NCBI RefSeq assembly: GCF_014651675.1
Contig: NZ_BMXI01000012.1
Coordinates: 124,001-188,000 of the forward strand
Length of the DNA: 64,000 nucleotides
DNA from: Roseibacillus persicicus
Lineage (GTDB): Bacteria > Verrucomicrobiota > Verrucomicrobiia > Verrucomicrobiales > Akkermansiaceae
Direction of reading: 5' to 3'
Part shown: positions 19,052 to 24,186 of the stretch, in pieces
How the letters are laid out: every line of letters starts with the position of its first letter
Position numbering within the stretch: position 1 is the first letter of the stretch
Program-made: the position numbers and the translations under genes
Notes under the pieces: model-generated
Database searches by the model: none
Told to the model about the DNA's origin: nothing
Seen by the model: the letters and a program-made list of their open reading frames with translations, nothing else

Positions 19052-19101
19052 GCGTAGTCTTGACGCTGGAATTGGGGGGTCTAAAGTTCTGGCCAAGCCT
19101 C

Positions 19102-20202
19102 ATGCAGCCCGACCCTACTCCAGAACTCGAAAAAGCCCTGTCCGAACGCATTCTCGTCCTCGATGGCGCCATGGGAACGACCATTCGAGGCTACGGCCTG
19201 ACGGAAGAACAGGCACGCGGCTCTCGCTTTGCCGATAACGAGAAAGATCTCCTCAACAACGGGGATATTCTCACCCTGACCCAACCCGACGTTATTGGCG
19301 ACATCCACAAGCGTTTTTACACCGCTGGCAGCGACATCGTAGAGACCAATACTTTCTCCGCGACAACCATTTCGCAGTCCGAGTTTTTCGTAGAGGACCC
19401 TCGCGAAAAAGGCACGGGCCGGAAGGACCCCGAGTTTTTTCACGACAAGGTCCTCAACGACCCTTTCCTCCGCCAACTGGCCACCGACCTCAATGTGGAA
19501 GGCGCGATTCTGGCCCGCAAGGAAGCCGATCGGATTGGCGAAGAAACCGGAATCAAGCGATACGTCGCAGGAGCCATTGGACCTCTAACAGTCTCTCTCT
19601 CCAACAGTCCCGATGCCGACGACTCGGGTTTCCGTACCGTGACTTTTGATCAGGTCAAAGACGATTACGCGCATCAAATCCGCGCCTTGATTGAAGGTGG
19701 CGTCGACATCCTGATGGTCGAAACGATTTTCGACTCGCTCAACGCCAAAGCCGCGCTCGTTGCTTGCCAAGAGGTTCTCGATGAAGTCGGCCAAAAGCTT
19801 CCCATCATCATCTCCGCAGCGGTGGGACGAGGAGGCGAAACCATGATTTCCGCGCAAAAGGGAGAGGCCCTTTGGAACGCGGTGGCCCACGTCAAACCAC
19901 TGGCAGTGGGACTCAACTGCTCGCTCGGTCCCGACCTCATGAAGCCCTTTTTACAAGACCTCGACAAATGCGTCACCTCTCATCTGAGCTGCTATCCCAA
20001 CGCAGGCCTTCCGAATCCCCTCGCCCCCACCGGCTTTGACCTGGAGCCTCCTCACATGGCCGAGTTCATGACTGAATTTGCCGAAGCGGGATTGCTCAAC
20101 CTCGCGGGAGGATGCTGCGGAAACACCCCCGAGCACATCGCCGCCATCGCCCAAGCGGTCAAAGGGCACGCGCCTCGGGCTATTCCGGCTTTAGAACGCT
20201 AA
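19102..20202 (+). CDS. metH: Methionine synthase, homocysteine-binding part (split MetH N-part)
   Basis: 366 residues from the ATG at 19102 (a TTG at 19060 adds 14 unlikely residues). It contains the complete S-methyl-transferase domain that holds homocysteine: LDGAMGTTIRGYGL near the start, ETNTFSATTISQ, GLNCSLGPD with the first zinc cysteine, and the paired zinc ligands GGCCGNTPEHI near 345. MetH is normally one chain of about 1,230 residues; here the chain stops after the linker AIPALER, exactly where the folate domain would begin. The remaining domains are encoded at 20704, beyond an inserted GxxExxY gene. Together the parts supply all MetH domains, so the pair may work as a two-subunit enzyme. 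Confidence 0.92.
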   Translation: MQPDPTPELEKALSERILVLDGAMGTTIRGYGLTEEQARGSRFADNEKDLLNNGDILTLTQPDVIGDIHKRFYTAGSDIVETNTFSATTISQSEFFVEDPREKGTGRKDPEFFHDKVLNDPFLRQLATDLNVEGAILARKEADRIGEETGIKRYVAGAIGPLTVSLSNSPDADDSGFRTVTFDQVKDDYAHQIRALIEGGVDILMVETIFDSLNAKAALVACQEVLDEVGQKLPIIISAAVGRGGETMISAQKGEALWNAVAHVKPLAVGLNCSLGPDLMKPFLQDLDKCVTSHLSCYPNAGLPNPLAPTGFDLEPPHMAEFMTEFAEAGLLNLAGGCCGNTPEHIAAIAQAVKGHAPRAIPALER

Positions 20203-20212
20203 CTCGTTTTTC

Positions 20213-20250
20213 GACGCAGAGCCGCAGAGGTCGCAAAGTAGACGCAGAGA
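20213..20250 (+). repeat. Left inverted repeat flanking the GxxExxY gene
   Basis: 38 bases made of CGCAGAG-type units. Bases 20213-20234 are perfectly complementary, inverted, to 20664-20685. The whole 38 bases match the right repeat with five mismatches. Confidence 0.9.
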
Positions 20251-20256
20251 ATCAGT

Positions 20257-20643
20257 ATGGAACTCAATGAATTGTCACACGCTGTCATTGGAGCGGCGAT
20301 GGAAGTTCACAAGATTTTAGGACCAGGCCTGCTCGAGGCAAGTTACCAAAAGGCTTTGCTCCATGAACTTCATCTGCGCTCCATCCCTTGTCGCTGCGAG
20401 GTTTTGCTTCCGATTACATATAAAGGACTGGCCATCGAGAACGCCTATCGCATCGACATTTTAGTGGCTGACACCTTAATCATAGAGCTCAAAGCCATTG
20501 AGAAGACTTTGCCCATTCACAAAGCCCAGCTTCTCACCTATCTCACTCTCACAGGCAAACCTCTTGGACTACTGATTAACTTCAATACCTCTCTGCTCAA
20601 AGATGGAGTCACTCGAGTCATCAACTCAAAACACACTAGCTAA
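20257..20643 (+). CDS. GxxExxY family protein (PF13366, PD-(D/E)XK-like)
   Basis: 128 residues. The defining motif appears as GPGLLEASYQKAL (G-L-L-E-A-S-Y) at about 22-34. Downstream, YRIDILVADTLIIELKA places the Asp and the E-x-K that would form a PD-(D/E)XK nuclease-like site. The biochemical role of the family is not established. The gene sits alone between the two halves of methionine synthase, in the same direction, and the interval containing it is bounded by a 38-base inverted repeat. This makes it look like the cargo of a small mobile cassette rather than part of methionine metabolism. Full length, no frameshift. Confidence 0.88.
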   Translation: MELNELSHAVIGAAMEVHKILGPGLLEASYQKALLHELHLRSIPCRCEVLLPITYKGLAIENAYRIDILVADTLIIELKAIEKTLPIHKAQLLTYLTLTGKPLGLLINFNTSLLKDGVTRVINSKHTS

Positions 20644-20647
20644 AAAA

Positions 20648-20685
20648 TCTCTGCGCTCACTCCGCGACCTCTGCGGCTCTGCGTC
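20648..20685 (-). repeat. Right inverted repeat flanking the GxxExxY gene
   Basis: Reverse complement of the left repeat at 20213-20250: 22 bases perfect (20664-20685), 33 of 38 overall. It ends 19 bases before the second metH ATG. Confidence 0.9.
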
Positions 20686-20703
20686 AAAATACCGAATTTC
20701 CTT

Positions 20704-23700
20704 ATGACCCTCCCTCGCCTCCTCCGCCTCTCCGGTTCCGACACCTACAACCACACCCCCGACAAAAACTTCCTCATGATCGGGGAGCGCACGAACGTCG
20801 CGGGTTCTCCCCGCTTCCGGAAGCTCGTTCAAAACAACGATCTCGAAGCCGCCCTTGAGGTCGCCCGGCAGCAGGTAGAGAACGGCGCCAACGTGATCGA
20901 CATTTGTTTCGATGACGGTCTCATTGATGGCGTGGCGATGATGGCTCGCTTTCTCGACCTGCTGCAATCCGAACCCGATATCGCAAAGGCTCCCATCATG
21001 GTCGATTCCTCCAAATGGGAAATCATCGAGGAAGGCCTCAAGCATTTGCAGGGCAAGGGCATCGTGAATTCGATTTCGCTGAAGGAAGGCGAAGAGGTTT
21101 TCAAGAAGCATGCCCGCCACATCATGCGCTACGGCGCCGCTACCGTGGTGATGGCTTTCGACGAGAACGGGCAGGCCGCCACCTACGAGGAGAAAATCCG
21201 CATCTGCAAGCGAGCTTACGATATTCTCGTCGACGAAGTGGGCTTTCCACCCGAAGACATCATCTTCGACCCCAACATTCTAACAGTCGCCACCGGCATC
21301 GAGGAGCACAACAACTACGCCCTCGATTTCATCAACGCCACCAAGTGGATTAAGGAAAACCTGCCCTACGCCAAGGTCTCCGGCGGGGTCTCTAACATCT
21401 CTTTCTCCTTTCGGGGCAACAACCCCGTGCGGGAGGCCATGCACTCCGCGTTTCTCTATCATGCCACCCAAGCTGGAATGGATATGGGCATCGTGAACGC
21501 GGGAATGTTAGAGGTCTACGACGAGATCCCACCCCACCTCTTGAAAGCGGTCGAGGACGTCCTACTCAACCGTGACCCCGATGCCACCGAACGCCTGTTA
21601 GACCTGGCGGAAGAGTTCAAAGGCAAGGGAGGCAAGAAGATGGAAGAGGACCTTTCCTGGCGGGAGGACACCGTCGAGAAGCGTCTCGAGTATGCTCTCC
21701 TAAAAGGCATCGACAAGTTTGTCACTGAGGACACCGAGGAAGCTCTCGCGAAATACCAAAAGCCTCTCACCGTCATCGAAGGCCCCCTCATGGACGGAAT
21801 GTCCATCGTGGGTGATCTCTTTGGCGCGGGTAAAATGTTCCTTCCCCAAGTGGTCAAGTCGGCCCGGGTAATGAAGAAATCGGTGGCTTATCTCGAGCCC
21901 TTCATGGAGGCCGAAAAAGAAGCCGGCCTCATTGAGCAAGTCCGCTTGATTCAGGAAGAAAAGCCCGAACTGACCCACGAGGAGGCCCTGCGCCTCGCCG
22001 AGAAACGCAACTCTGCGGGCAAGGTCATCATGGCCACGGTAAAAGGCGATGTCCACGACATCGGAAAGAACATTGTTGGGGTGGTACTCGCCTGCAACGG
22101 CTTCGAAGTTGTCGATATGGGCGTGATGGTGCCCTGCGCAAAAATCCTCGACACCTTTGAAGAGCAGCAAGCCGATATCATCGGACTCTCCGGACTCATC
22201 ACCCCTTCCCTCGACGAAATGATCACCGTCGCCAAGGAGGCCGAGAAGCGTGGCTTTGGCGAGAGAGGCGTTCCCATTCTCATCGGAGGCGCCACCACCT
22301 CCGCAGCCCACACCGCGATCAAGATCGCCCAGCACTACAGTGGTCCGCTCGTTCACGTACTGGATGCTTCCCGCTCGGTGCCGGTCACCACCTCGCTCCT
22401 TTCCAAGGAACATCGCGATCAGTTCATCGCGGAGAACAATGCCAAGCATGAAAAGGCCCGGGCTGCTTTCATCAGCGGACCCAAGAAAGAAATGGTCTCC
22501 TTGGAAGAAGCGCAGCGGAACAAATTTGTCCCAAAATCCGGTTGGGAAAGCTACACCCCGCCCGTGCCGGAGTTTACCGGCTCGCGCACGATCAAGGAGC
22601 AATCCTTGCGCGAACTTTCGACCTACATCGACTGGACCCCCTTTTTCCATGCTTGGGAACTTCGTGGGGTATGGGACAGCGAGACCCAGACTCTCAAGAC
22701 CCGCAAGGAAGGCGCCCCCGAGGAGGCGACCAAACTCTACAACGAAGCACAGGAACTGTTAGAGGAGATTATCGCCAACAAGAGCTTCACTGCAAAAGGC
22801 ATCTACGGCTTTTTCCCGGCCCATGCCAGCGGCGACGACATCGTCCTCCCCGACCACGACACCACCTTCCACACCCTCCGCCAACAAACCAAGAAGTCGG
22901 ATAACAAACCAAACCTGGCCCTCGCGGATTATGTGAAACCTAAGGCGAAGCCGTTCGTGGGGTGGACGTCTCGTCCACCCGAACCGCGAGACCAGTCCCA
23001 ACGCGACAAGCTTCTTTCTACGGGCACCGCTTCAAACTCCCCGGACATCGTCAAAACAAAGTCAAATAGTCTTCCTCACTGGACTCAGGAAGGAGCGACC
23101 TACGCAGTCACCTTCCGACTTCACGATGCCATCCCCCAGTCCATTCTGAGAGAGTATGAAGCCGAGAAAAAACGTCTGTTGGAACTGAAGGAAAACCGGG
23201 ACTCCGACATCAGCCTTCGCGCTGAAAAGGATTTGCAGGAACTCTACGAAACTAAGATTGAGAAGACCGCCGATGAAGCCCTTGGTGAATGCTATCTGAG
23301 TAATCCCGAAATCGGAAAGATCGTCAGCGACGCCATTCTTCATTTCAACGAGGACCGCTATGACCTTGCGGCATGGTGCGTGATGCCCAACCACGTCCAC
23401 CTTCTCCTAAAACCCAAAGAGGGACACGAGCTTTCGAAGATTGTGCAAAGCCTCAAGAGCTTCACCGCGAAAGAAGCGAACAAGGTTTTGCAACGCGAAG
23501 GCACCTTTTGGTTGAGTGAGTATTACGACCACCTGATTCGCGATGCGGATGATTTCTTTAATCACCACCGTTATATCCTAAACAATCCAACCAAAGCAGG
23601 ACTGGAAGCTTGGCCTTGGATTGGAGACGGTCTCGACAGCGACCAAAGCGAAACTGGTGGACGAGACGTCCACCACACGGGCGACTATCTGGGAGGCTTT

Positions 23701-24186
23701 GTGGTTGGCATTCATGGCGCCCACGAATTGGCGGATGAGTATGAGAAGAACAACGATCCTTACCGCTCCATCATGGTGAAAGCGATTGCCGACCGACTGG
23801 CGGAGGCCTTTGCGGAGCTCCTCCACCACCGGGCTCGAATCGCGTGGGGAATCGAGCGCCCGGGTCAGCTCAATCACAACGAGCTCATCAAGGAACTCTA
23901 CCAAGGAATCCGCCCCGCTCCCGGCTATCCGGCCCAGCCCGACCACACCGAAAAGCCCATCCTCTTCAAGCTACTCAACGCCGAAGCAGAAACCGGGGTC
24001 GAGTTAACCGAGTCCAATGCCATGCACCCCGGCGCAGCCGTCTGCGGTCTCCTCTTCAGCCATCCGGAATCCCACTACTTCGTCATTTCCGAACTCCAGA
24101 AAGACCAAATCGAAGACTACGCCACACGGAAAGAGATGAGCGTGGAAGACGTCGAACGCTGGTTAGGTCCATGGCTTGGTTATTAA
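20704..24186 (+). CDS. metH: Methionine synthase C-part with in-frame RAYT transposase domain
   Basis: 1160 residues. The MetH domains are in order: folate-binding pterin domain (about 20-290, [12 protein letters not shown]), cobalamin cap and B12 domain (about 330-600, ligand His451 in DVHDIGK), and the SAM-binding activation domain (about 640-1160, [17 protein letters not shown]). The activation domain is interrupted in frame at about residues 750-992 by a REP-associated tyrosine transposase domain: [14 protein letters not shown] motif PNHVHLLL (H897, H899), candidate Tyr940/941 in [10 protein letters not shown], and [11 protein letters not shown]. Before it comes [12 protein letters not shown] and after it [10 protein letters not shown], which abut in E. 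coli MetH. Without the insert the part would be about 917 residues. No start codon precedes the RAYT core in frame, so it can only be made as a fusion. Confidence 0.93.
22960..22980 (+). repeat. REP hairpin, left of RAYT
   Basis: Nine-base arms GGGTGGACG and CGTCCACCC around a TCT loop, preceded by GTG. It is translated as part of the fusion protein (GWTSRPP). Confidence 0.88.
23655..23675 (-). repeat. REP hairpin, right of RAYT
   Basis: Nine-base arms TGGTGGACG and CGTCCACCA around an AGA loop, that is, the same REP as the left copy in opposite orientation. It is translated as GGRDVHH. Confidence 0.88.

Follow-up and report, generated by a model that had tools for sequence, protein, structure and literature searches.

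The window, by which we mean the whole 64-kb stretch of Roseibacillus persicicus DNA that was analysed, carries a cassette of about 0.48 kb (positions 20206-20692) between the two parts of a split metH gene. This cassette consists of one gene of the GxxExxY family, a common family name for which we know of no established function, enclosed by two inverted arms. The features of the locus are the following:

19060-20202, plus strand: N-terminal part of MetH (homocysteine-binding domain), upstream host gene (NF007024 / TIGR02082 / PF02574)
20206-20250, plus strand: left arm, four heptamers, CGCAGAG-c-CGCAGAG-gt-CGCAAAG-taga-CGCAGAG; inverted-repeat (IR) score 32
20257-20643, plus strand: GxxExxY gene, 128 aa, predicted PD-(D/E)XK nuclease (TIGR04256, PF13366, conservation, AlphaFold2)
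20648-20692, minus strand: right arm, inverted copy, minus-strand reading CGCAGAG-c-CGCAGAG-gt-CGCGGAG-tgag-CGCAGAG
20704-24186, plus strand: rest of MetH (pterin, B12 and activation domains), downstream host gene (profile matches)

The left arm starts a few nucleotides 3' of the stop codon of the MetH N-terminal part (stop at 20202), and the second MetH ORF (20704) begins 12 nt past the right arm. Each arm measures 45 nt, and the two are 84% complementary. Their perfect core is the 22-mer GACGCAGAGCCGCAGAGGTCGC at 20213-20234, the inverted copy of which lies at 20664-20685. Heptamers start at 20215, 20223, 20232 and 20243 in the left arm and at 20649, 20660, 20669 and 20677 in the right arm, with spacers of 1, 2 and 4 nt that are identical in both. 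The IR score of the arms is 32, whereas 2,000 dinucleotide-preserving shuffles averaged 9.4 and never exceeded 19, and other pairs with equal spacing across the 64 kb score at most 14; shuffles and scan together rule out a chance repeat. A previous sequence-only reading of this DNA had described a GxxExxY gene inside an inverted repeat with 22 perfect nucleotides and about four units per arm, which the coordinates and the IR score bear out.

The gene product matches TIGR04256 over the full model (1-116 of 116) with 140.6 bits (cut-off 35), and PF13366 with 137.5 bits (cut-off 22). These were its only profile matches, and no match to HUH/Y1 was obtained. Across 90 homologues, E27, D67, E77 and K79 are at least 90% conserved and Q91 is invariant; Y95 is also conserved and forms with Q91 a QxxxY motif of the RecB type. 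No cysteine occurs among the invariant or nearly invariant columns of these 90 homologues. The AlphaFold2 model (pLDDT 96.5) has its best solved-fold matches, at moderate TM-scores, in SSO0001 (4ic1, a Cas4 protein), LHK-Exo and lambda exonuclease. A sequence-level homologue was not found in the PDB, and the best PADLOC match was a weak one to Cas4 (E 0.005). The protein is predicted to be a minimal Cas4/lambda-exonuclease-like PD-(D/E)XK nuclease whose catalytic residues are all in place; conservation, model and fold match extend the PD-(D/E)XK-like residues noticed earlier to a full core. With the branch comprising Cas4, RecB and lambda exonuclease it shares the fold and the E, D, ExK and QxxxY residues. 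However, the missing conserved cysteines indicate that it is not Cas4 proper: the GxxExxY protein is minimal, at 128 aa, and lacks the invariant cysteine and hence a Cas4-type iron-sulphur ([4Fe-4S]) cluster, and its gene lies here outside a CRISPR locus.

Inverted arms are found along most of the GxxExxY family. We assembled 113 loci spanning more than 15 phyla, archaea among them; 33 came from 38 related genomes, including that of the window, and 80 from genome contigs picked by similarity to the window protein. Arms were called by a simple alignment score and taken as present at an IR score of at least 18. They were detected at 88% of the 113 loci, as against 5% of 202 shifted windows from the same loci and 9% when flanks were swapped. 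In an unbiased set, comprising every family member in the 38 genomes, arms accompany 77% of the copies with at least 100 bits and 27% of the weaker ones, and copies without recognisable arms are mainly diverged. Arms as a general trait of small genes in these genomes can be dismissed, given the 5% of shifted windows and a value of 21% for RAYT genes. The window's genome has four GxxExxY genes, each with inverted arms and each with a different unit type. Units vary among loci (CGCAGAG, CACGAAG, CAGGATT, CGCAGAT and others), yet both arms of one locus agree. The usual arm is made of ACC and three C-R-C-N-R-A-G heptamers at a pitch of 8-10 nt, and its inverted form ends in GGT. Looking for arms beside other GxxExxY genes, as had been proposed, was thus successful in many phyla. 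The CGCAGAG arms themselves are true of this copy, but other family members show the same architecture with other units, so that the diagnostic trait is a heptamer specific to the locus, rather than CGCAGAG as such; this heptamer is repeated three to four times and differs between protein clades. At eight loci, mostly from Desulfobacterota (L114, L117, L131, L133, L135, L139, L142 and L175), a conserved hairpin type, TTTCCGCTGAGAGGGCGGAAA, follows the arm and adjoins the gene. Two similar copies of another arrangement (L296 and L297, genome G036) have inverted CACGGAG arms around about 610 and 726 bp, between which no GxxExxY match was found.

The arm types are not scattered over the protein tree (n=113). 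On this tree, which rests on few columns and has many open forks, CAGRATT arms form one clade across four families of genomes, and CRCAGAT arms and CACGGAA/CGCGAAA arms form further clades. With 37 loci left unclassed by a strict rule, the four arm classes require three changes, which is the minimum, whereas shuffles average 10-12 and 0 of 400 were as low. The unit within the main arm class changes 28 times, compared with shuffle means of 36-38, and again 0 of 400 shuffles came as low; the 0/400 result also holds with shuffling inside phyla. Moreover, at an orthologous nuoK/nuoL site both arms have changed together, being of the CAGGATT type in the window's genome and of the CAGAATT type in G001, a genome of the same genus that has a GxxExxY protein identical to a named Roseibacillus ishigakijimensis locus. 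We consider this strong but not final evidence that arm type follows protein lineage. The association of arms with the protein tree points to joint travel; by itself it is no demonstration of binding.

Several relatives allowed us to compare occupied and empty sites. The gap between the metH halves is occupied in G000, G001, G009 and G015, with differing arms and with proteins from two or more distinct clades. It is empty, with a short spacer, in G002, G003, G021 and others, and metH is fused in further relatives. The nuoD/nuoE gap holds a cassette in G000 and a pseudogene version in G001, whereas G002, G003, G009 and G021 have it empty. Hence, the empty sites that the sequence-only reading had suggested looking for in relatives do exist, at both gaps. 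Doublets, that is, inverted repeat pairs without a gene, were not found in the few empty metH and nuo gaps examined. As a side observation, metH is a single gene in several relatives and split in two in many, the cassettes lying exactly in the gap, and it may have been cassette insertion that split the gene. What may be the remnant of an arm, CTCCGCGTCTCC, is present in the empty metH gap of G004.

In three pairs of loci with unrelated flanks, homology is bounded by the arms: L117/L135 (590 bp, 83%), L127/L148, which joins Verrucomicrobiota and Desulfobulbaceae (438 bp, 71%), and L136/L158. In a further pair, L108/L118, the match spans the left arm and the gene. Insertion at a tRNA end, hinted at by the flank of L127, was rejected because a tRNA was not found there. 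This comparative evidence shows that arm, gene and arm form a unit that passes between sites and genomes, even across phyla, and it supports the earlier idea of a small mobile element. At 45 ends, direct repeats 2-11 nt long were not in excess, as they would be after target-site duplication. The gene is hardly amplified inside genomes: copies within a genome are diverged, with a median identity of 34%, and for 70 of 72 the closest relative is in another genome. Where cassettes are flanked by two co-directional genes, 60 of 67 have the same orientation as these (p=1e-11), which suggests expression from the host operon. At the sensitivity used, the family appeared in 8 of 72,556 plasmid records and in none of 50,697 phage records.

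The repeats also occur without the gene. Gene-less inverted doublets, whose loops measure about 15-110 nt, are present in many loci, at a density of 5.2 per 100 kb around the GxxExxY genes on genome contigs. None were found in metH, TIGR02436 or RAYT loci, and mono-nucleotide-shuffled loci yielded zero. The unit of the gene-less doublet matches the arms of the gene at the same locus in 14 of 18 cases, where 3.5 would be expected. An earlier census of 38 relatives, in which two per-genome counts were estimated, had given p=0.007 and was then enlarged to 194 near-complete genomes of the phylum, searched with the pattern CRCRRAG x3. Triple-unit sites number a median of 12 (mean 34) in the 109 genomes with the gene and a median of 0 (mean 0.7) in the 85 without it (p=9e-24). 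After subtracting up to four hits per cassette, at least 10 sites are left in 38 of the 109 genomes with the gene and in 2 of the 85 without (p=3e-9). The link persists at genome sizes of 2-4 Mb and in 8 of the 11 families with both states. It is an association, and causation could be reversed, with repeat-rich genomes acquiring the gene. Triples occur in 13 of the 85 genomes in which the gene was not detected; two of these, G106 and G177 of family f33, hold 19 and 17 triple-unit sites, possibly as relics, after loss of the gene or through another driver. Extra triples are few in the genome of the window. Thus, the repeat is common without a linked gene at the local level, as solo and doublet copies, which is one of the observations that the sequence-only reading had named as refuting it, whereas genome-wide the repeat is strongly tied to possession of the gene. 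At three further loci of the window's genome (L035, L036 and L042, on contigs C8, C14 and C10), solo CGCAGAG-type arms are fused with repeats such as GGATGGATGGGATGGAT, giving composite dispersed repeats. Contigs C118, C123, C142 and C144 of G001 terminate within such repeats, suggesting that the repeats interrupt assemblies.

We think it probable, though by no means certain, that the window cassette is one copy of a minimal mobile element that resembles a REPtron but has an unrelated enzyme, spreads its cognate repeat and occasionally moves whole. The nuclease would recognise its own repeat unit, probably as a dimer on a hairpin or cruciform of the doublet, and would cut the cognate doublet. 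Through host repair or replication, doublets and, on rare occasions, the entire cassette would then be copied to new sites. Cassettes share the orientation of the host operon that they enter, and the gene would probably be expressed by read-through from this operon. Counting against this explanation are the lack of a detected target-site duplication, the near absence of gene amplification within genomes, the triples without a detected gene, the armless copies and the few triples in the window's genome.

REPINs, the closest parallel, are inverted REP doublets that form hairpins. They are linked to RAYT genes that are distinct and single-copy and have their nearest relatives in different genomes (PMC3116915). 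REPs are the more abundant where TnpAREP is present, and how they disseminate has yet to be resolved (PMC8266576). As in a REPtron, the GxxExxY gene is flanked by cognate repeats, inverted doublets capable of forming hairpins are dispersed, and there is usually one gene per repeat type. The closest relatives of the gene likewise lie in other genomes, and the repeats cluster near the gene, with an abundance tied to its presence. Unlike the REPtron enzyme, a HUH/Y1 tyrosine transposase, the cassette enzyme has a PD-(D/E)XK fold; its arms consist of three to four tandem heptamers with an ACC...GGT terminus, whereas a REP is a palindrome with GTAG; and transfer of whole GxxExxY cassettes is visible across phyla. 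By membership, then, the cassette is no REPtron, yet by analogy it appears to work like one.

Other explanations account for part of these data. The repeats could be an independent dispersed family, and the gene a homing-type passenger that cuts empty doublets and is copied into their loops. The nuclease fold, the resemblance of gene-less doublets to empty sites and the genomes with triples but no detected gene are in line with such a passenger. However, it predicts several near-identical gene copies per genome, while the copies are diverged with their nearest relatives elsewhere, and the empty metH and nuo gaps, few as those examined are, hold no doublet and so were not pre-existing doublets; we regard this explanation as rather unlikely. 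A conventional insertion sequence, with terminal inverted repeats, a PD-(D/E)XK transposase and doublets as MITEs, would fit the inverted ends with their conserved ACC...GGT terminus, the homology bounded by them and the internally deleted look of the doublets. It is unlikely nonetheless: the gene is not amplified within genomes, plasmids with the family are rare and phages with it were not found at the sensitivity used, tandem-heptamer arms would be an unusual transposon end, and a target-site duplication was not found, which is not decisive given that some IS families have none. More generally, the cassette shares with MITEs and IS elements the inverted ends bounding a unit and the small, internally reduced copies, but differs in having no detected target-site duplication, no known transposase and no gene amplification within genomes.

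The arms might instead act at the RNA level, pairing in the mRNA of the host operon so as to loop out or protect the cassette, with the repeat retained for RNA folding. The 23S rRNA intervening sequences, which are cut by RNase III, offer a likeness to such a device. The strong co-orientation with host operons and the tight flanking of the coding sequence by the arms would agree with it, as would the TIGR02436 family: its arms are similar, and a selfish intervening sequence of 23S rRNA is described as encoding an S23p-type member (PMC4990558). Nevertheless, arm mismatches are not biased towards G-U on the transcribed strand (155 are wobble-compatible and 150 are not, p=0.82), and the unit-matched gene-less doublets, the arm-delimited transfer and the genome-level link to the gene are left unexplained, which makes an RNA device quite improbable. 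A defence or toxin-like nuclease gene, merely often carried between common repeats, finds an echo in the weak PADLOC matches to Cas4; since the cassette has no partner gene, its arms follow the protein lineage and repeats are more numerous in genomes with the gene, we give this idea very little credence.

The REPtron-like element that we favour may also stand for a wider group. The cassette type is widespread in bacteria and archaea and apparently undescribed; for GxxExxY, PF13366 and the repeat sequences, nothing relevant was found in the open papers. GxxExxY cassettes could form a distinct, undescribed class of mobile element whose sole enzyme is a Cas4-like nuclease of about 130 aa, which would read a co-evolving tandem-heptamer 'code', spread gene-less hairpin doublets genome-wide and cross phyla and domains as a moving unit of about 0.4-0.6 kb. 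Such insertions might even have contributed to the splitting of genes like metH. We regard this broader proposal as somewhat less likely than not. If it is true, these cassettes are among the smallest autonomous elements known. From these data the GxxExxY family gains a testable role, that of a nuclease with a cognate, lineage-specific repeat whose spread it aids. Such a role would mean that an unrelated enzyme superfamily has given rise to the REPtron life style, in which a nuclease goes with many hairpin repeats. It would also explain many unnamed interspersed repeats of environmental genomes, where triple-unit sites can reach the hundreds in a single genome, and would supply natural nuclease-repeat pairs for deriving a recognition code.

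Two other families deserve mention here. The 23S rRNA intervening sequences (S23p/TIGR02436, PMC4990558) are, like the cassette, small single-gene selfish elements, and TIGR02436 genes of the related genomes also have inverted arms of tandem units. The intervening sequences differ in that their protein is a four-helix bundle and their units belong to another family; moreover, the cassette lies in the metH gap and not at an rRNA site. At 22 TIGR02436 loci of the related genomes (L182-L211), inverted arms of tandem units were present in 82% (score at least 18), with units such as GTTTCAA, GTAGCGA and GTTCAGG, so TIGR02436 may be a second, unrelated protein family with its own repeat system. Finally, the window holds a REP-associated tyrosine transposase (NF047646) at 22959-23678, in frame within the MetH activation domain (ORF 20704-24186). 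With the REP-like palindromes GGGTGGACGTCTCGTCCACCC and GGTGGACGAGACGTCCACC at its boundaries, it amounts to a REPtron placed in frame inside a core enzyme. In G002, G013, G022 and G031, too, the metH contig has RAYT matches within long open frames.
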